Assembly (NCBI GenBank): GCA_026713105.1
Contig: JAPOPC010000077.1
Span: 1 to 64,000, forward strand
DNA: 64,000 nucleotides
From: Acidimicrobiaceae bacterium
Lineage (GTDB): Bacteria; Actinomycetota; Acidimicrobiia; Acidimicrobiales; Poriferisodalaceae
Reading direction: 5' to 3'
Shown here: in pieces, positions 30,857 to 42,938 of the stretch
Layout of the letters: every line of letters begins with the position of its first letter
Numbering within the stretch: position 1 is the first letter of the stretch
Notes under the pieces: generated by a model
Told to the model about the DNA's origin: nothing
Database searches by the model: none
Seen by the model: only the letters and a program-made list of their open reading frames with translations
Program-made: the position numbers and the translations under genes

Positions 30857-32554
30857 ATGACACCTATCAGGCAGGCGCAACGGCGATTCCTGGTTACATT
30901 GTCCGTTGCGTTGTTCTCGGGCGCAGCCCTCACGTCTGGTTTAGCAAGTCCGGCATTCGCATACGAAACACTGGCGTACGTCGCAGGTGCCGAGTCTTGG
31001 ACGGCATCTGATTGTTCGGGCGACATCCCGATCGTAGTTGGTTCGGATGCGGCGGCGCAGTCGGATATCTATAGCGCTGTGACGCTTGCGGGGGTGCTCG
31101 GTACCGACTGTGTGGTCTTGGCTGGTGCCCGTGACGAGGTGATGTCGGCGGGCCAGCGGGTGCGCTTGGACGCGGCGGCGGGCGGCGGCTATGTCGTTGG
31201 CGGCTTGGCAGCCGTTCCGGCAGGCAAGATCGCCGGACGTGCCATGACCCGTATCGGGGGTGCCTCCCGCTGGAACACTGCGCAACTGATCGGCCGTGAG
31301 GCCGTTTCGTTGGCTGGAGGCAGTGTGCCCGCTTCCCCGAGCGCAATCGATGGATCGTTGAGCATCCCTGCCGACGTGCGACAGCCGGGAGTTTTTCTGT
31401 ATGGGGCTGGGCCGTGGGTTGCGTCGGACTGTGCTGGGGACACGCCCATCGTGGTGGGTTCGGACGCTAAGGCGCAGTCGGACATCTACAGCGCCGTCGC
31501 CTTGGCCGGGGTCGTCGGCACTGATTGTGTCGTCCTTGCGGGGTCTCGTGATGGGCCGATGCCGCCAAGCCAGCAGGAGCGTCTTGATGCTGCCCAGCCG
31601 GGCGGCTTCGTGCTCGGCGGCACAGCGGCGGTTCCGACTGCGAAGATCGCCGGTCGGGACATGACGCGTCTGGGGGGAGCGTCGCGTTGGGAGACAGCAC
31701 AGTTCGTAGGCCGACGCGCCAGCGGCGACACCGCCGCAGGAACCAGCACCACAACCGAAGGCGTGCCGACTTCATCAATGTTCACAGCGATTTCGGCAGC
31801 AGACCAACAGATGTGCGGCATTCGCACCGATAGCACTATTGAATGCTGGAACCATTGGGACGAGGCACGAACCTCGCCCGTGTCGGGAACTTTCACTGAA
31901 GTCGCAGCGGATGACGGGGCAAGAGGTTGCGGCGTTCGCACCAATGGCACAGTCGAATGCTGGGGCTGGCCATCTTCGGCGCCTTCGGGTTTGTTCACCA
32001 AGGTTGTTGTAGAAGGCGACCTGTGCGGCATTCGCACCAATGGCACTATTGAATGCTGGCACTTTTTCAGCGGGGAACGAAGCTCGCCGCCGTCAGGAAC
32101 TTTCACCGCAATAGCCGGCGACCGCCTTCATGCGTGCGGCATCCGTACCAACGGTGCTGTCGAATGCTGGGGTTTTGCAGACGATGAACGAACTTCGCCG
32201 CCGTCAGGAACATTCACCAAGATAGCAGTCGGTCACGCTGTGTCGTGCGGTATTCGTACCAACGGTGCTGTCGAATGCTGGGGTTCGTCGTACAGCGATG
32301 TGGTGAACTCCGCCGTGCCGTCAGGAATTTTCACCGAGATAGCAGTGGGAACCCGAAATGCGTGTGGCATCCGCCCCGCGGGCACCATTGAATGCTGGGG
32401 CGCGGACGAACACGATGATATTTGGCCGCCGCTGCCGCCACCGCCGTCAGGTAGGTTCAGGTCGATTGCAGCGGATGGCTCCTATGCGTGCGGTATCCGC
32501 CTAGAGGGCGCCGTTGAGTGCTGGGGCGCGTTCGGCGCCAAGTATGCGGGATAA
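30857..32554 (+). CDS. CWB2 surface protein with seven RCC1-like propeller blades
   Basis: A 565-residue exported protein from ATG 30857, with a signal peptide ending near ASPAFA. Two CWB2-like units (about 40-150 and 175-285) share SDIYSAV.LAG and DMTRLGGASRWETAQ with the next gene and should anchor the protein to wall polymers. From about 308 to the end I count exactly seven repeats of about 36 residues, each with FTxIA...CGIRTNGTIECWG...PPSG, the RCC1/BLIP-II pattern, predicting one closed seven-bladed beta-propeller. Every blade carries a C-x9-C pair, which could form an intrablade disulfide outside the cell. The likely role is ligand or protein binding at the surface; the ligand is unknown. 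Confidence 0.87.
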   Translation: MTPIRQAQRRFLVTLSVALFSGAALTSGLASPAFAYETLAYVAGAESWTASDCSGDIPIVVGSDAAAQSDIYSAVTLAGVLGTDCVVLAGARDEVMSAGQRVRLDAAAGGGYVVGGLAAVPAGKIAGRAMTRIGGASRWNTAQLIGREAVSLAGGSVPASPSAIDGSLSIPADVRQPGVFLYGAGPWVASDCAGDTPIVVGSDAKAQSDIYSAVALAGVVGTDCVVLAGSRDGPMPPSQQERLDAAQPGGFVLGGTAAVPTAKIAGRDMTRLGGASRWETAQFVGRRASGDTAAGTSTTTEGVPTSSMFTAISAADQQMCGIRTDSTIECWNHWDEARTSPVSGTFTEVAADDGARGCGVRTNGTVECWGWPSSAPSGLFTKVVVEGDLCGIRTNGTIECWHFFSGERSSPPSGTFTAIAGDRLHACGIRTNGAVECWGFADDERTSPPSGTFTKIAVGHAVSCGIRTNGAVECWGSSYSDVVNSAVPSGIFTEIAVGTRNACGIRPAGTIECWGADEHDDIWPPLPPPPSGRFRSIAADGSYACGIRLEGAVECWGAFGAKYAG

Positions 32555-32615
32555 CACCTCCCCACCCAGTTACGGGAGTGAGGGCCCAGAGCCAATAAGC
32601 GCGGCACCTAGCGCG

Positions 32616-35204
32616 ATGTTGGGCCGAGTGAAGTTCCGACGATCTCTATCGTCGACTGGACGTCTCAGATTGGCGTCTCTTGCCGTAGTCGTTGCAGTGT
32701 TGTTGGGTACGGTGCCGGTGTCGGCGCAGCAGGCGGGAGCGTATGTTGCTGGCGCGGAGCCGTGGGTCGAGTCTGATTGCTCGGGCGATGTGCCGGTGGT
32801 GGTTGCTTCGGATGCGAAGGCGCAGTCGGACATTTACAGCGCGATCACTCTCGCGGGCGCGGTCGGCACTGATTGTGTGGTTCTCGCGGGGCCCCGAGAG
32901 GGTGACATGCCGGCGGCTCAGCGGTCGAGGCTGAACGATGCTGCGGCAGGCGGTTACGCGGTGGGCGGCACTGCTGCGCTTGCGGATGCGAAGCTCGCCG
33001 ATCGGGACATGACGCGTATCGGGGGTGCGTCGCGTTGGGAGACGGCGCAGCTCATCGGCCGTGAGGCCAGTGCGCGTGCAGGCAGCACGCCGCCGGATAT
33101 TGCCGCTCCCGATTCGTCGCTGCACCTGCCGTCTGATGTGCGCCGGCCAGGCGTCTTCCTCGGCGGCGCGGAGCCGTGGGTCGCGTCTGATTGCTCCGGT
33201 GACGTGCCGATCGTTGTTGGTTCGGATGCCAAGGCGCAATCCGACATCTACAGCGCGGTCACGCTCGCTGGGGTAATCGGTACCGATTGCGTGATCCTTG
33301 CCGGTCCCCGGGACAAGGACATGCCCGCCAGTCAACGAGCGCGGCTCGCCGATTCCGCCGAGGGCGGTTACGTGGTAGGCGGCATCGCTGCGGTGCCCAC
33401 GGTGAAGATCGCTGGCCGCGACATGACCCGCTTCGCGGGATCGGACCGTTGGGCCAGCGCCGTGCTCGTCGGACGGCGCGCTAGCGGCGACACCTCCGCC
33501 GGCACCGCCACCACGACTGAGACAGCCACGGTTGGTTCCGGCGACACCGCAATGTTCGCAGCGGTCTCGGTCGGCGGATCGCACACGTGCGGGCTGCGCA
33601 CCGACGGCACAAGCATCTGTTGGGGCGACTACAGGCAGGGGCAGTTGGATGCTCCGCGGGGCTCATTCACCGCGGTGTCTGCGGGAAGAAAACACTCGTG
33701 CGGTTTACGTCTGGATGGCACAGTCGACTGCTGGGGCCGCAACGAGAGCGGGCAGGCGGATGCGCCTGACGGATCGTTCATCTCGGTGTCCACCGGCTCA
33801 GACCACTCGTACGGGGTGCGCGCCAACGGAGCGGTGGTCTGTTGGGGCGCCAACGGCTACGTCTGGGAAGATGTGGACGACGGGCGCGCGGATGCCCCGT
33901 CGGGCTCGTTCGTGTCGGTGTCCGCCGGCCTAGGACATTCGTGCGGGGTGCGCACCAGCGGTGCTGTGACTTGCTGGGGCCGCAACGAGAGCGGGCAGGC
34001 GGATGCGCCTGACGGCTCGTTCATCGCGGTATCCGCTGGCCGATGGCATTCGTGCGGGGTGCGCACCGACGCGACTGTGGTCTGCTGGGGCGAGGCTGAT
34101 CGCGTGCTCTACACGCCCAAGGGTTCGTTCGTGTCGGTGTCCGCTGGAAACAACCATACGTGCGGTCTGCGCACGAACGGCACGGTCGCCTGCTCGGCTT
34201 GGTGGAGCGCTCCCAACCACAGTAGCGACGGCGATTACGGGCAGGCGGATGCGCCTGAGGGCTCGTTCACGTCGGTGTCTTCCGGCAGTGACACCTCGTG
34301 CGGGGTGCGCGCGAACGGGGCCGTCACCTGCTGGGGACGGAACAGCGTCGACGGAATAGCGACGGCACCGTCGGCTTCGTTCACGTCGGTCACGGTCTCG
34401 GGTCTTTGGTATTCCGACGGGTACCCGTTCTCGTGCGGGCTGCGCAGCGACGGGACAGTGAGTTGCGCGGGTCCCTCCCGGCAGTTTCCAAGTGCGTCAC
34501 ATGACGAAGGGGGCTTCACGGCCATTTCGCTGGGTAACGGTTTCCTTTGCGGACTGCGCCGCGGCGGAAGTGCAATATGTTCGAGCCGCTACGACCTCGG
34601 GGAGAACTTCGCGCCGACTGCACGCTTCGTCGCGGTCTCTGCGAGCCGATTGGATGTAAACGACGATCTTGTCTGCGGCGTGCGTGCGACAGGCGAAGTG
34701 CAGTGCTGGACGAAAACGATATGCCCTAGCTGCAGGGCTGACCGCCGGGTCGCGGAAAGTCCGACAGGTGTGTTCACCGATGTGTCAGTCGGCGACCGGC
34801 ATGTCTGCGGGTTGCGCGCGAGCGGCGCCGTCGCCTGTTGGGGCAGTAACGGCTTTGGGCAGTCATCAGCGCCGTCAGGCTCGTTCACCGCGGTGTCGGC
34901 TGGCGCAGACCACTCGTGCGGGTTGCGCGCGAGCGGCATCGTCGCCTGTTGGGGCAGTAACGGCTTTGGGCAGTCATCAGCGCCGTCAGGCTCGTTCACC
35001 GCGGTGTCGGCTGGCGCAGACCACTCGTGCGGGTTGCGCGCGAGCGGCATCGTCGCCTGCTGGGGTAGAAACCAAGGGGGACAAGCGGACCCGCCCTCTG
35101 GGCTCTTTCAGGATCTGGCCGCCGGCACCACCCATTCGTGTGCCGTGCGCAACGACGGCGCGATGGTTTGCTGGGGCTTCAATGCTGAAGTTCTGCTGTG
35201 GTGA
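32616..35204 (+). CDS. CWB2 surface protein with fourteen RCC1-like blades
   Basis: An 862-residue paralogue of the preceding protein. I start at ATG 32616; GTG 32628 is an alternative. The signal peptide spans about residues 15-36, and two CWB2 units cover about 42-300. The remainder is fourteen RCC1-like repeats (counted by their C-x9-C core), i.e. two seven-bladed propellers in tandem. Blades 8 to 10 are the most diverged. Blades 11-13 are encoded by DNA containing an exact 111-bp tandem duplication (34806-35027), the length of one blade, which points to recent copy-number change. It follows the previous gene by 61 bp and is probably co-transcribed. Confidence 0.87.
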   Translation: MLGRVKFRRSLSSTGRLRLASLAVVVAVLLGTVPVSAQQAGAYVAGAEPWVESDCSGDVPVVVASDAKAQSDIYSAITLAGAVGTDCVVLAGPREGDMPAAQRSRLNDAAAGGYAVGGTAALADAKLADRDMTRIGGASRWETAQLIGREASARAGSTPPDIAAPDSSLHLPSDVRRPGVFLGGAEPWVASDCSGDVPIVVGSDAKAQSDIYSAVTLAGVIGTDCVILAGPRDKDMPASQRARLADSAEGGYVVGGIAAVPTVKIAGRDMTRFAGSDRWASAVLVGRRASGDTSAGTATTTETATVGSGDTAMFAAVSVGGSHTCGLRTDGTSICWGDYRQGQLDAPRGSFTAVSAGRKHSCGLRLDGTVDCWGRNESGQADAPDGSFISVSTGSDHSYGVRANGAVVCWGANGYVWEDVDDGRADAPSGSFVSVSAGLGHSCGVRTSGAVTCWGRNESGQADAPDGSFIAVSAGRWHSCGVRTDATVVCWGEADRVLYTPKGSFVSVSAGNNHTCGLRTNGTVACSAWWSAPNHSSDGDYGQADAPEGSFTSVSSGSDTSCGVRANGAVTCWGRNSVDGIATAPSASFTSVTVSGLWYSDGYPFSCGLRSDGTVSCAGPSRQFPSASHDEGGFTAISLGNGFLCGLRRGGSAICSSRYDLGENFAPTARFVAVSASRLDVNDDLVCGVRATGEVQCWTKTICPSCRADRRVAESPTGVFTDVSVGDRHVCGLRASGAVACWGSNGFGQSSAPSGSFTAVSAGADHSCGLRASGIVACWGSNGFGQSSAPSGSFTAVSAGADHSCGLRASGIVACWGRNQGGQADPPSGLFQDLAAGTTHSCAVRNDGAMVCWGFNAEVLLW
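34806..35060 (+). repeat. Exact 111-bp tandem repeat, one propeller blade
   Basis: Two full 111-bp units (34806-34916 and 34917-35027) plus the first ~35 bp of a third. The units are almost identical: the only difference I see is GCC against ATC at one codon near the start. The period equals 37 codons, one blade. Near-identity at DNA level, while neighbouring blades are diverged, indicates recent unequal crossover or replication slippage. Confidence 0.85.
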
Positions 35205-35400
35205 TTCGTCGTGGATTCGCTACTGCCTCCAAATAGCTCTCGAGAATTGACATCGGCGGCCGCGATAGTCCACCTGTTGCTCTTCAGCGCGTCGCTGCGG
35301 GGATTGGCCTCGATACTCGAGCCTGTCATGTACCTACGCAGGTGTGAACGGGGGTGCTTCGGTGTTCGGTCGTAGCTACGAGAGTCGGATCGCCAGTGTG

Positions 35401-38400
35401 ATGGCTGCACGACGGCGGTGTCGACGGCGTCTCACAGCAGTGATGCTGGCGTCTGCACTCATGCTGAGTGTTTCCGCAGTGGTGCCGCCGGCCGGAGCGC
35501 AGGCCGGTGGGGAGGCTGACCCGCCGGTGCTTGTGGTGGCGTTGGAGTCGTCGTTGTCTGATGTGGGCACGGCGGCGTCGCTGGTGGCAGCGGGCAAGGG
35601 CGACGCAGTGGTGTTCGCAGTCTCAGTTGACTCGCTGGGCGATGCGAGCGCCGATCTGGTCAGGGTGCAGATGCCTGAGCGGATCTACATCGTCGGCGGC
35701 ACGTCGGCTGTGGGCGCTGATGTCGAGCACCGGTTGCGGTCGCTGGCGCCGGGGGTGTCGATCACGCGGTTCGCGGGCTCGACCCGCGTCGAGACGGCTG
35801 CGCTGGCTGCGGACGAGGCGTTGGACGGTCGCAGCGCGTCGAAGATCATTGTTGCGAATGGCTGGTCGCTGCCAGACGTGGGCGCCGCGGCGGCAGCGGT
35901 CGCGGCTGGGGCGGCAGACGCCGTGCTTTACGCCGGACGGGACGTCTTGGGCGAGCCGACTCGTGACGCGCTCGGGGCCCAACGGCCGGCAACGGTGCTG
36001 ATTGCTGGCGGTCCGGCGGCGTTGTCTGCCGGGGTGGAGGCTGCGGCGGCCACGGCGGCAGGCGGGGCGACTACGTCGAGGCTGGCTGGGGCGACGCGTC
36101 TTGAGACTGCGGCGCGGGTTGCTCAAGAAGCGCTGCCTGATGGAGCGACGACGGTGGTGGTCGCCGATGGCTGGTCGCTGGCTGATGTCGGGGTGGCCGC
36201 GACGCTCGCAGCGTCAATGCCCGACAGTGCTGTGCTGTATTCCGCGGATGGCGACGATCTGCCCGCCGCGCTCGATGCGGCTCTGCGCAGCTTGGCACCG
36301 GATCGCATCGTCCTTGTCGATGCCCGCAGTGCTGCATCGCGGGGCGTGCTGAACGGGCTCGCCCGGCGCGGGACCTCGACGCGCATTTCTTCTACGGTCA
36401 ATGCGACGCGGGCCGCGCTGGGCGAAGACGTGGGAGAACGTGTCGAAGTCGAAGAAGCGGACCCTGCAGCCGCGATCGCCAACGCCGAGGCCTACATGGT
36501 CGAACTGGTCAACGAACTGCGTGAGAGCGTCGGCGTCCCTCCGCTGCACCCGAATGACCTCATCTCAAACGTGGCCCGCAACTGGTCCACCGTGATGCAG
36601 GAGCGGACCACGTTCGAGCACAACCCAAACTGGAGGTCCGAGTACCCGCCCGGCAACGTTTCCGGGGGCGAGAATATCTCAAGACTTACGTGGCCGACCA
36701 TCCGCTATGGAAATGAGAACAATGCGTACGTTCCATGTCCAAACTGCATAACTCTGCGCACAGCAACTCAAGAGAGCTTCGACTCGCTCAAGGACAGTCC
36801 CGGCCACTACGCCAATATGGTCCATCCCAACTTCGGCCAGATCGGCGTGGGCATCGTGGCAGGTCCAAACAGCGTCTGGTTCACCCAGAACTTCGCCTGC
36901 TACGCGACACGGCCGTTGCAGCCGGATGAGACTTGTCCCTCTGGTCCTGGGCCAACCAGTTCAGCGACCGAAATAGATGTCGACGATCTCAGCGTTGTCG
37001 CAGGTATCGAGGCGCCGTACTCGGTCAGCTCGATTCGCGACGGCGAATACGTGGCCATGGACTACAGCGTCGGCGTCAGCGGCGGTCTCTGCGCGATCCG
37101 CTCGGATAATTCCATCATGTGCTGGAGCGGTAATCCTTCATCGCGGTTGAAGGACGTCCCGAGCGGTGAGTTCATGGATATCTCGATCCTCGGTGAACGA
37201 GCGTGCGCGTTGCGCCTCGACGGCACGATCACGTGCTGGGGCGATTTCGCTGGCCCAGGCCTGCCGAACCCGCCGAGCGGTGCCCATCAATCGATTGCCG
37301 TCGCATCAAATTACGCGTGTGCTCTGCGAGAGGACCGAACGATCGCATGCTGGGGCATGGGCAAGGATTGGGAGCGTGCTGATGCGTCCGGAGTTCTCGA
37401 TACGCCCGCAGGCACCTATGCGGCCGTCAGCCCAGGTAACCGTCATGCCTGTGCGCTGAGGACCGATGGAGCGATTCGATGCTGGGGGGACGAACGATCG
37501 GGACTCACGGACTCTCCAAGCGGTACGTTCACGGCCTTGGCTGCCGATGGCGGGGCGTGTGCGGTCCGAGCCGACGGGACTGCACATTGCTGGGATTCGA
37601 CATTCAGCGGGCAGCAGCAATTCGACTTCGGCGGCAACGGCAGCCAACCGATTGCGAGCATCGCAGGCGGCAACAGCACGGTATGCGCCTTGGACACGAA
37701 TTCGCACTTGGCCTGCAAGCATGCGCAACTTGCCACTGTCGTCGGCAATGAGATCATCGTGGCGGATGGCTCGTCGTTCGACGTATCCGTGCCGAACGGG
37801 CCGTTCTCGTCCATCAGCGTCGGTTCTCGGTCGGGTTGCGGCCTGCGCCCTGACGGCGCGATCGCATGCTGGGGACGGGGCCACGACAACCTCCATGTGC
37901 CTCCTGGCAACTATCAGTCATTGTCGAACTCGTGCGGTCTACGAATCGACGGAACGATGGTCTGCTGGAAAGGCCTTCGAGCGCCAGACCTCCCGCTGAG
38001 TTTCTGGGGTCGGGGTGTCCGTTCCGGCGTCGCTGTGTTTCCAGGAGAATACGTGGCGATGAGTTCGGGGCCACCACCCGGTAGTTTCAACGGACATTTC
38101 GCCGTCTGCGGCGTCACAACAGACGCAGCGCTCAACTGCTTCGGAGCTGACCTGGTGACAGGCTGGGTCAGCCGACAACCTCAACGAATCGAGGGCAGCT
38201 ACGAATCTGTGGTTGTTGGGCACGGTGCCGCATGTGCGCTGAGAACCGACTCGACGATCAGTTGCTGGGGCGAAGAAAGTGCACGCCAATTCGGAATGCT
38301 CGACGCCCCCTCGGGCACGTTCACCCAGATCAGCGCCGGTTTCCTGCATTTCTGCGCCATCCGAAGCAATCAGTCCGTGACGTGCTGGGGCCACAACGGA

Positions 38401-38862
38401 GCGGACCAGCTCGATGCTCCAGGCGGGAGATTCACGTCGATCAGCAGCGGCGGAGATCTGACGTTCGGCGTTCGCCCCGACGGCTCAGCAGTCAGCTGGG
38501 GCGACCACAATTGGGGTGGCGGGTGGACCAACTGGACCGGATTCAGCCCCGAGCAGCGCTTCGCTTTGATCAGCTTGGGCCCACAAGGCGGCTGCTACGT
38601 CGGACCCGCAGGATCTACTGGCTGCTTCGGACCGGCCGGTTCCGGGATGAGGCCGCCCCATCTGTCTCAGCTTGGCCTCGACGAATCGGGCAAGTTCCTC
38701 GAATGGACCTCCATAGATTTCAACTCACGCTGCGGCATACGCAGCGACGACGGAGTCACCTGCTGGCCCGAACTGCCAGACGGCGTCACCTGGCACACCG
38801 CCGAGACCATGATCTGGACCTACGGCGACGACCTGCCCGGGCCCCATCAGTGGGCATGGTGA
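35401..38862 (+). CDS. Triple-CWB2, CAP-domain, fourteen-blade RCC1-like surface protein
   Basis: An 1153-residue exported protein. The signal peptide ends near VVPPAGAQA, with start at ATG 35401 (the frame is open back to GTG 35344). Three CWB2 units (about 40-345) have the canonical spacing, e.g. IYIVGGTSAV and ITRFAGSTRVETA. A CAP/SCP domain follows (about 361-505: LVNELRESVGVPPL, GGENIS, GHYANMVHPNFGQIGVG). From about 546 to the end I count fourteen RCC1-like repeats, some degenerate, again two sevens. CAP domains often bind lipids or proteins or act as proteases, and three CWB2 copies is the usual anchor number. This gene is more diverged than the two before it and ends the array. Confidence 0.86.
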   Translation: MAARRRCRRRLTAVMLASALMLSVSAVVPPAGAQAGGEADPPVLVVALESSLSDVGTAASLVAAGKGDAVVFAVSVDSLGDASADLVRVQMPERIYIVGGTSAVGADVEHRLRSLAPGVSITRFAGSTRVETAALAADEALDGRSASKIIVANGWSLPDVGAAAAAVAAGAADAVLYAGRDVLGEPTRDALGAQRPATVLIAGGPAALSAGVEAAAATAAGGATTSRLAGATRLETAARVAQEALPDGATTVVVADGWSLADVGVAATLAASMPDSAVLYSADGDDLPAALDAALRSLAPDRIVLVDARSAASRGVLNGLARRGTSTRISSTVNATRAALGEDVGERVEVEEADPAAAIANAEAYMVELVNELRESVGVPPLHPNDLISNVARNWSTVMQERTTFEHNPNWRSEYPPGNVSGGENISRLTWPTIRYGNENNAYVPCPNCITLRTATQESFDSLKDSPGHYANMVHPNFGQIGVGIVAGPNSVWFTQNFACYATRPLQPDETCPSGPGPTSSATEIDVDDLSVVAGIEAPYSVSSIRDGEYVAMDYSVGVSGGLCAIRSDNSIMCWSGNPSSRLKDVPSGEFMDISILGERACALRLDGTITCWGDFAGPGLPNPPSGAHQSIAVASNYACALREDRTIACWGMGKDWERADASGVLDTPAGTYAAVSPGNRHACALRTDGAIRCWGDERSGLTDSPSGTFTALAADGGACAVRADGTAHCWDSTFSGQQQFDFGGNGSQPIASIAGGNSTVCALDTNSHLACKHAQLATVVGNEIIVADGSSFDVSVPNGPFSSISVGSRSGCGLRPDGAIACWGRGHDNLHVPPGNYQSLSNSCGLRIDGTMVCWKGLRAPDLPLSFWGRGVRSGVAVFPGEYVAMSSGPPPGSFNGHFAVCGVTTDAALNCFGADLVTGWVSRQPQRIEGSYESVVVGHGAACALRTDSTISCWGEESARQFGMLDAPSGTFTQISAGFLHFCAIRSNQSVTCWGHNGADQLDAPGGRFTSISSGGDLTFGVRPDGSAVSWGDHNWGGGWTNWTGFSPEQRFALISLGPQGGCYVGPAGSTGCFGPAGSGMRPPHLSQLGLDESGKFLEWTSIDFNSRCGIRSDDGVTCWPELPDGVTWHTAETMIWTYGDDLPGPHQWAW

Positions 38863-38908: not shown

Positions 38909-39397
38909 TCAGATGACTGGGGCGGGTTCGCGGCTGGGTAACCACTGTTCGAGCGGGGCGGCTTCGCTGACGATTTGCAGGCCGAGGGCGGCCAGGGCTC
39001 GTTCGACCTCATCGGGCTTGGCGGGGCGGTAGATGTCGGTGAGTCGCCTGGCGTGCGACGGGCGCATGCCGATGCGACGCGCCACTTCAGTTGGCGTGAT
39101 TCCCTCGGCTCGCATGGCCTCATAGAGGGCGAGCTGTGCTGCGACCGGCGCCGACACTGCGACGAGCACCTGGCCAGGCCCGGGATCGCTTGGCTCCGGC
39201 AGGGGCTCATTGCTGTCGATGCTGAAGCTCAGCGCCGTCTCGAGGCAGTCCCGCAGGTGACTGTTCACTTCCTGAACCGACCAACCGCCGGTGATGGCAG
39301 GTGGCACATCAGGAAAAGACGCGACATACGCCTCGCGACCCGTGGTCTCGGCCTCCTCGCCGTCCAGCGCTACCTCACATGGATAGGAGCACCTCAT
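38909..39397 (-). CDS. hicB: HicB-like antitoxin with C-terminal HTH, copy 1
   Basis: A 162-residue antitoxin. The N-terminal HicB fold reads YVASFPDVPPAITGGWSVQE, and the linker is acidic and Pro-rich. A C-terminal helix-turn-helix (GITPTEVARRIGMRPSHARR) should bind its own operator. The partner HicA ribonuclease is missing: only its last ~20 codons remain directly upstream. A closely similar copy lies at 42450-42938, and fragments of its 3' end recur at 40128 and 41563. Its job without a toxin is unclear; protection against relatives or simple decay are both possible. Confidence 0.85.
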   Translation of the reverse strand: MRCSYPCEVALDGEEAETTGREAYVASFPDVPPAITGGWSVQEVNSHLRDCLETALSFSIDSNEPLPEPSDPGPGQVLVAVSAPVAAQLALYEAMRAEGITPTEVARRIGMRPSHARRLTDIYRPAKPDEVERALAALGLQIVSEAAPLEQWLPSREPAPVI

Positions 39398-42449: not shown

Positions 42450-42938
42450 TCAGCGAGCCGGGGCGGGATCGTGGCTTGGCGTCCACTGCTCCAGCGGGGT
42501 GGCTTCACTGACCATCTGCAGGCCGAGGGCGGCGAGTGCCCGTTCAACCTCGTCGGGTTTGGCGGGCCGGTAGATGTCAGTGAGCCGTTTGGCGTGCGAA
42601 GGGCGCAGTCCGATGCGGCGCGCTAGCTCCGCAGCGGTTACACCGTTCGCGAGCATGGCTTCATGGAGTGCGAACTGGCCGGCGACCGCTGGCGACACAG
42701 CGACCAGAACCTGATCTGGTTCGGGATCACTCGGTTCAGGGAGATCTTCGCCGTCGCGCAGGTACCCGCCCAATGCGACCTCAAGGCAATCTTGCAGCCG
42801 GTCACTCACTTCCTGCACGGTGTCCCCGCAGGTATGGGCACCATGTACATCGGGAAATGAGGCGTTGTAGCCCTCCTGCCCCGTGTCGCGCAAGTGCTCT
42901 TCGTCGAGTTCAACAGCGCAGGGAAAGACGTATCGCAT
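42450..42938 (-). CDS. hicB: HicB-like antitoxin with C-terminal HTH, copy 2
   Basis: A 162-residue paralogue of the antitoxin at 38909-39397: YNASFPDVHGAHTCGDTVQE, then ELARRIGLRPSHAKRLTDIY for the helix-turn-helix, and the same ALAALGLQ.VSEA.PLEQW ending. No HicA precedes it; the upstream frame ends QKINKIPQGDF and stops, possibly the very last codons of a deleted toxin. Both copies keep full length and conserved cores, which suggests continued selection or recent duplication. Confidence 0.85.
   Translation of the reverse strand: MRYVFPCAVELDEEHLRDTGQEGYNASFPDVHGAHTCGDTVQEVSDRLQDCLEVALGGYLRDGEDLPEPSDPEPDQVLVAVSPAVAGQFALHEAMLANGVTAAELARRIGLRPSHAKRLTDIYRPAKPDEVERALAALGLQMVSEATPLEQWTPSHDPAPAR

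Follow-up and report, generated by a model that had tools for sequence, protein, structure and literature searches.

Among the described systems closest to the locus considered here, BLIP-II is a single ring and is not known to carry a wall domain. It is a secreted bacterial binder with an RCC1-like propeller (PMC9218822), the target of which is known, and lacks regular cysteine pairs of the kind seen here (PMC4617170). The extracellular region of the plant receptor kinase CRINKLY4/ACR4 is RCC1-related and has seven compact repeats with the signature C(X10)CWG, for each of which a disulfide has been predicted (PMC4617170). WRAP (PDB 2YMU) contains 14 blades in two seven-blade rings and shows recent blade amplification (PMC6805158, PMC9218822), but it belongs to the WD40 lineage and makes up the C-terminal region of a protein with a STAND ATPase (PMC9218822). 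CWB2 units are found in the Clostridium difficile proteins Cwp6, Cwp8 and SlpA. Here we describe three adjacent genes, P1, P2 and P3, in a 64,000-nucleotide stretch (the window) from an Acidimicrobiaceae bacterium of the family Poriferisodalaceae (assembly GCA_026713105.1, contig JAPOPC010000077.1, positions 1 to 64,000). In architecture, their products bring together rings of the RCC1/BLIP-II type, probably two in tandem in P2 and P3 as WRAP has (PMC6805158), with cysteine pairs like those of CRINKLY4 (PMC4617170) and with CWB2 and CAP (cysteine-rich secretory protein) domains; this fits known propeller proteins and is not wholly new.

We consider it probable that all three proteins are exported and end in one (P1) or two tandem (P2, P3) seven-bladed propellers, held at the envelope and binding a target. 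The likeness to ACR4 extends to compact, cysteine-paired, RCC1-related repeats with a CWG signature and to an extracellular setting (PMC4617170). The differences are that the cysteine spacing here is mostly C-x9-C, that the proteins are bacterial and that one or two rings are joined to CWB2 and CAP; no kinase family is among the Pfam matches of P1-P3, and the receptor kinase make-up of CRINKLY4 was not encountered. None of the titles and abstract openings listed in literature searches dealt with CWB2 joined to RCC1 repeats; the terms 'RCC1 repeat' and 'cell wall binding' do occur together in PMC4449606.

Repeats and fold of P1, P2 and P3

All three open reading frames (ORFs) lie on the forward strand and have signal-peptide-like starts, judged as such by eye. 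P1 (30857-32554) begins at ATG 30857, and a purine-rich stretch lies in front of this codon. The start of P2 (32616-35204) is uncertain, being ATG 32544, ATG 32616 or a nearby TTG or GTG, and that of P3 (35398-38862) is likely to be GTG 35398 or ATG 35401. Cut by hand, the C-terminal regions comprise seven blades in P1 (residues 309-565; 31781-32551), which would form a single ring, fourteen in P2 (residues 351-899) and fourteen in P3 (residues 569-1172), abutting without gaps up to the C-terminus of each ORF. The putative rings A and B span 33555-34379 (blades 1-7) and 34380-35201 (blades 8-14) in P2, and 37048-37911 and 37912-38859 in P3.

A blade hidden Markov model (HMM) rebuilt from the genus, with a domain counted if at least seven of the 11 columns from first to second cysteine were covered, again gave 7, 14 and 14. 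These were the numbers of an earlier sequence-only reading, and the careful recount leaves each divisible by seven. That reading also had every blade built on C-x9-C, which holds for 33 of the 35 blades (7/7 in P1, 13/14 in P2 and 13/14 in P3), the remaining two being blade 3 of P2, with tyrosine for the first cysteine, and blade 12 of P3, where neither cysteine is left. The near-exact blade duplication it noticed in P2 is plain to see: positions 34829-34948 are identical over 120 nucleotides to the stretch 111 nucleotides downstream, a shift of one blade length, marking a recent tandem duplication in blades 11-13 (34773-35105). Assembly errors within the repeats are possible. All three proteins match RCC1_2 (PF13540) above its cut-off of 22 bits (27.3, 290.7 and 98.7 bits for P1, P2 and P3), while scores against the RCC1-like domain PF25390 (WD40_RLD) all fall under its cut-off of 150 (20.5, 141.8 and 56.2 bits).

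Of 641 distinct blades, 638 retain the two cysteines (17 repeated and six gapped sequences having been excluded), and the cysteine spacing is nine in 627 of 655; since the HMM was trained on these blades, cysteine-free blades may escape it and the cysteine figures are partly circular. The disulfide per blade proposed from sequence is thus well matched by a cysteine pair in nearly every blade, and its oxidised state is a prediction from that pairing. Each blade would have three strands, of which B and C are probably stapled together by the disulfide.

The assignment to RCC1/BLIP-II-type propellers is well supported by profiles and models. The leading PDB matches of a profile of twelve 14-blade proteins were ACR4 (2.5e-36) and BLIP-II (4.5e-34), and P1 alone found only ACR4 among matches at E values up to 0.1. 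The best sequence match of both P1 and P2 is the CRINKLY4/ACR4 ectodomain (PDB 7a0j, 7a0k). An AlphaFold2 model of P2 (830 residues, 10 sequences) has a mean predicted local distance difference test score (pLDDT) of 65.2 and a predicted TM-score (pTM) of 0.52. Its blade region, residues 282-822, shows fourteen three-strand groups, starting at residues 282, 319, 356, 400, 437, 473, 519, 557, 602, 638, 688, 725, 762 and 799, and ten-residue blocks mostly at pLDDT 60-95. In Foldseek searches with this model ACR4 ranked first, superposing with TMt 0.71-0.77 and a root mean square deviation (rmsd) of 3.3-3.9 over four chains. With the P3 blade region (mean pLDDT 68.3, pTM 0.47), two of four ACR4 chains gave TMt 0.66 and 0.71, and two of the four BLIP-II chains listed gave 0.67. 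The matches of the P2 and P3 models each fit one seven-blade ring. Structure prediction supplies the fourteen blades of P2 and the ACR4-like fold, and two closed rings are inferred from the counts, the halves of P2 and the junction between blades 7 and 8.

Probable attachment to the envelope

The N-terminal regions of the three proteins differ in how clearly they belong to CWB2. In P3, three units can be read within approximately 35503-36400; Pfam scores the family (PF04122) at 48.3 bits against a cut-off of 24.9, with two stretches passing, a search of the genome agrees, and the region matches the solved C. difficile Cwp6, Cwp8 and SlpH chains. P1 (30962-31780) and P2 (32727-33554) each have two diverged units by reading, with two cysteines per unit; P1 has no Pfam CWB2 match and P2 reaches 18.5 bits, under the cut-off. 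Profile-profile alignment with hhalign nevertheless relates the P1/P2-type unit to clear-cut CWB2 units from the window's own genome (probability 86, E 4.8e-6). The two or three units previously ascribed to the proteins were counted by reading in all three, with Pfam support for the family in P3. P3 additionally contains a CAP domain (36499-36894; PF00188, 50.5 bits, cut-off 21.1) that had been overlooked.

In C. difficile, deletion of any one of three CWB2 units abolishes anchoring (PMC4973711), as does replacement of PILL by AAAA, while a change of the proline alone in Cwp66 does not (PMC4973711). At the PILL place the window proteins have CVVL and CVVL (P1), CVVL and CVIL (P2), and AVVF, AVLY and AVLY (P3). 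Proline is absent from all; its loss was considered as an argument against anchoring and dropped, given its dispensability in Cwp66 (PMC4973711). As judged from these residues, the hydrophobic part of the place is kept in P1 and P2. Compared with the C. difficile proteins and their three units, P1 and P2 have two diverged units with cysteine in place of the PILL proline.

It is possible, although we think it doubtful, that P1 and P2 are secreted free or are bound to a partner other than a polymer of the wall, with wall binding lost or changed in their CWB2-like units. The two units instead of three, the Pfam scores under cut-off and the C. difficile deletions (PMC4973711) would fit such a loss, as would the genome's other repeat ORFs, which by eye have one unit, or none and a membrane- or lipoprotein-like N-terminus. 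On the other hand, the ILL-type residues are kept in both proteins and the missing proline is dispensable in Cwp66 (PMC4973711), while P3 next door matches Cwp6, Cwp8 and SlpH. Furthermore, the same genus encodes L124 (loci fetched for comparison carry L numbers), with CWB2 at 118 bits in three strong stretches and seven blades, and its relatives L130 and L136, with the same PILL-type strings joined to seven blades, so that wall-type propeller proteins do exist in the genus. The description 'wall-anchored' given on first inspection accordingly suits P3, with its three units, better than P1 and P2. Wall binding of P1-P3 is plausible and, on these signatures, likely if unproven, least certainly for P1 and P2; the CWB2 units, together with CAP in P3, would probably hold the rings at the envelope. 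Genome G000 has 95 CWB2 matches, a large share of them on contig C1.

Blade number and ring arrangement

RCC1_2 matches are present in all 11 genomes sampled from the genus, in none of eight from the family's other genera and in seven of 12 taken elsewhere in the order. The genus census, over loci fetched from the 11 genomes, gave 68 blade-bearing ORFs, of which 56 have at least 350 residues; for the window's own genome, scoring covered 150 of the 211 first-look candidates. The 12 shorter ORFs having been dropped before counting, 39 of the 56 have a multiple of seven blades: 19 with 7, 17 with 14, two with 21 and one with 28 (binomial p 8e-21 against a null of 1/7, which is crude and disregards that the ORFs are related). 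Without the window proteins the figure is 36/53, and for clusters at 55% identity 28/41. Multiples of seven are also seen in fetched outgroup loci L106-L120 (13/17 ORFs) and in 18 named loci from several phyla, picked by their likeness to P2 blades (13/22 ORFs); fourteen-blade relatives are present in several phyla. L100, with 21 blades, has the CWB2-CAP-RCC1 make-up of P3. L081 (5447-10198, forward strand) has 28 blades, 14 on either side of a long insert that by eye looks like SLH and has no Pfam SLH match. L121 (9455-11605, reverse strand) encodes a protein with CWB2 and RCC1_2 in which a long insert containing HExxH separates blades.

That the fourteen blades of P2 and P3 make two separate closed rings is suggested by the counts, by the equal halves of P2 (275 and 274 residues) and by a less regular junction between blades 7 and 8. 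Among the 13 junctions of 23 fourteen-blade ORFs, from the genus and the named loci and with L095, L149 and L155 left out, 7/8 has the least regular P-x-G-x-F link, with a mean motif score of 2.17 against 2.43-2.78 elsewhere (within-protein permutation p 0.008).

Several results count against this arrangement or blunt the support for it. Simpler tests of the 7/8 junction over all 26 ORFs gave p 0.054 for the motif and 0.098 for a length of 37. Blade similarity at a lag of seven is not raised in the 27 ORFs of at least 13 blades (lowest p 0.03). The best structural matches span about one ring per model, residues 1-278 of the P2 model, its CWB2 part, cannot be used, being nearly all at pLDDT below 50 (mostly the reason for the model's low mean), and the P3 model is weak in its last stretch, at the end of ring B. 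The match ranked first for P3, a UVR8 chain, superposes poorly (TMt 0.32), and the fit of P3 to the two other ACR4 chains (TMt 0.50 and 0.45, rmsd 17-19) and two other BLIP-II chains (TMt 0.37 and 0.38) is likewise poor. Superposition on a seven-blade fold was good for P2 on ACR4 and for P3 went up to TMt 0.71. Finally, 17 of the 56 longer genus ORFs are not multiples of seven, nor is any of the 12 shorter ones, mostly fragments, giving 39/68 overall. Whole-ring duplication was examined as a source of the fourteen and rejected: blade i is no closer to blade i+7 than expected, and the rings do not look like copies of one ring.

The 17 exceptions, by the HMM rule, are L061 (6), L064 (15), L067 (8), L071 (8), L072 (15), L083 (5), L094 (27 and 10), the second ORF of L095 (5), L102 (13), L103 (8), L104 (13), L105 (16), the third ORF of L121 (4), L123 (5), L128 (8) and L133 (16). 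Counting by eye alters some of these: L071 and L103 then have seven blades and a tail remnant, and L095, with 14 by rule, has 15, a degenerate blade having been missed. L104 has an in-frame stop inside its last counted blade, beyond which blade sequence continues, and its relatives L065, L088 and L089 have 14 blades; L094 and L096 also appear interrupted. The break in L094 (reverse strand) seems to lie within the first blade, and L094 is adjoined by a shorter copy that looks recombinant. Others include L083, with five very similar blades, and L102, with 13. The outgroup exceptions are L106 (5), L118 (6) and two overlapping L120 ORFs (2 and 5). Among the nine in the named loci, three are pieces of two broken L141 genes that sum by eye to 14 + 14, L146, L147 and L150 run off the contig end, and the other three are L148 (13), L156 (5) and L157 (13).

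Counts of 8 (L067, L128), 15 (L064, and L095 by eye) and 16 (L105, L133) recur across genomes. In L105 and L133 the sole blade spacing other than 37 is that at the 8/9 junction (38), and L064 has a spacing of 51 residues after blade 8. The recurrence and the spacings suggest, without proving, eight-blade rings. The two 16-blade ORFs, L105 (4919-8101, reverse strand; with a PPC domain) and L133 (3370-6513, reverse strand), are candidates for 8 + 8 rings. The expectation that blade number stays a multiple of seven in relatives thus describes the commonest state, with recurring departures from it.

Shared ancestry from a single protein of 7 or 14 blades, in place of a need for whole rings, seems an improbable reason for the multiples of seven. 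Orthologues do share counts, and a ring-to-ring comparison of P1, P2, P3, L100 and others brought out no clear line of descent for the rings. Multiples of seven nevertheless persist in the 28 of 41 clusters and in the majority of outgroup and named-genome ORFs already given, the numbers 7, 14, 21 and 28 all occur, even with the same domain make-up (P3 with 14, L100 with 21), and there is no similarity at lag seven. Very unlikely indeed is a different disposition of the fourteen blades, be it one large ring, 8 + 6 or rings shared between chains, since, even though WRAP blades in other copy numbers gave other, oligomeric forms (PMC6805158) and some relatives have 8, 15 or 16 blades, counts cluster at 7, 14, 21 and 28, the P2 halves are nearly equal, the 7/8 junction is less regular, the P2 model matches seven-repeat ACR4 with TMt up to 0.77 and the natural 14-blade WRAP is two seven-blade rings (PMC6805158).

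Probable variable face, neighbouring genes and possible repertoire

Over 647 distinct blades, sequence entropy and insertions concentrate in the A-B loop and immediately after strand C. These two stretches together contain 259 inserted residues, compared with 17 in the B-C loop and none in the D-A link, where large inserts can shorten HMM matches so that insertions are undercounted. (Strands A-D are named from the pattern of the repeat; in the P2 model A, B and C alone are present.) The A-B loop and the stretch following strand C share a face of the meander, which points to one variable face. Seven-bladed propellers of RCC1/BLIP-II type, with compact blades of around 37 residues, would then present loops varying in sequence and length on one face and a more constant surface on the other. 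Such rings most likely serve as rigid display scaffolds, the variable face binding a protein or glycan target.

Upstream of P1 on the same strand lies P0 (27774-30812), which the earlier reading did not mention and which may be co-expressed with P1-P3. It has two CWB2-like units (CW_binding_2, 28.9 bits), a HELGH stretch resembling the HExxH site of zinc proteases (Reprolysin_4, 19.1 bits, under its cut-off of 22) and fn3 (61.9 bits). In tblastn searches of the fetched loci its CWB2 part alone was matched, the protease and tail parts finding nothing. Downstream, on the reverse strand, two small proteins that resemble each other are encoded at 38912-39397 and 42453-42938; the former has no Pfam match at E 0.001 and the latter matches a HicB-like antitoxin (29.2 bits, cut-off 27). 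Between them are an AAA_14/DUF4143 ATPase and a pRiA4b ORF-3-like protein.

In P1-P3, bacteria seem to have a counterpart to the ectodomain of plant CRINKLY4. Tentatively, the genus may possess a repertoire of fast-changing exported propellers of one, two, three or four rings, in which a constant, disulfide-braced frame carries one variable face for surface recognition, and in which blades turn over while mostly whole rings survive, natural eight-blade rings (8, 8 + 7 and 8 + 8) among them. A survey of young propellers described amplification without a counting system, and blade numbers that vary continuously and peak at the preferred value (PMC9218822). Here a single genus provides dozens of related ORFs with mostly whole-ring counts, no detected whole-ring duplication and recurring counts of 8, 15 and 16, so that the way in which blade number settles becomes testable. 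What is most worth following is this near-quantised ring number within one genus, along with its recurring eights.

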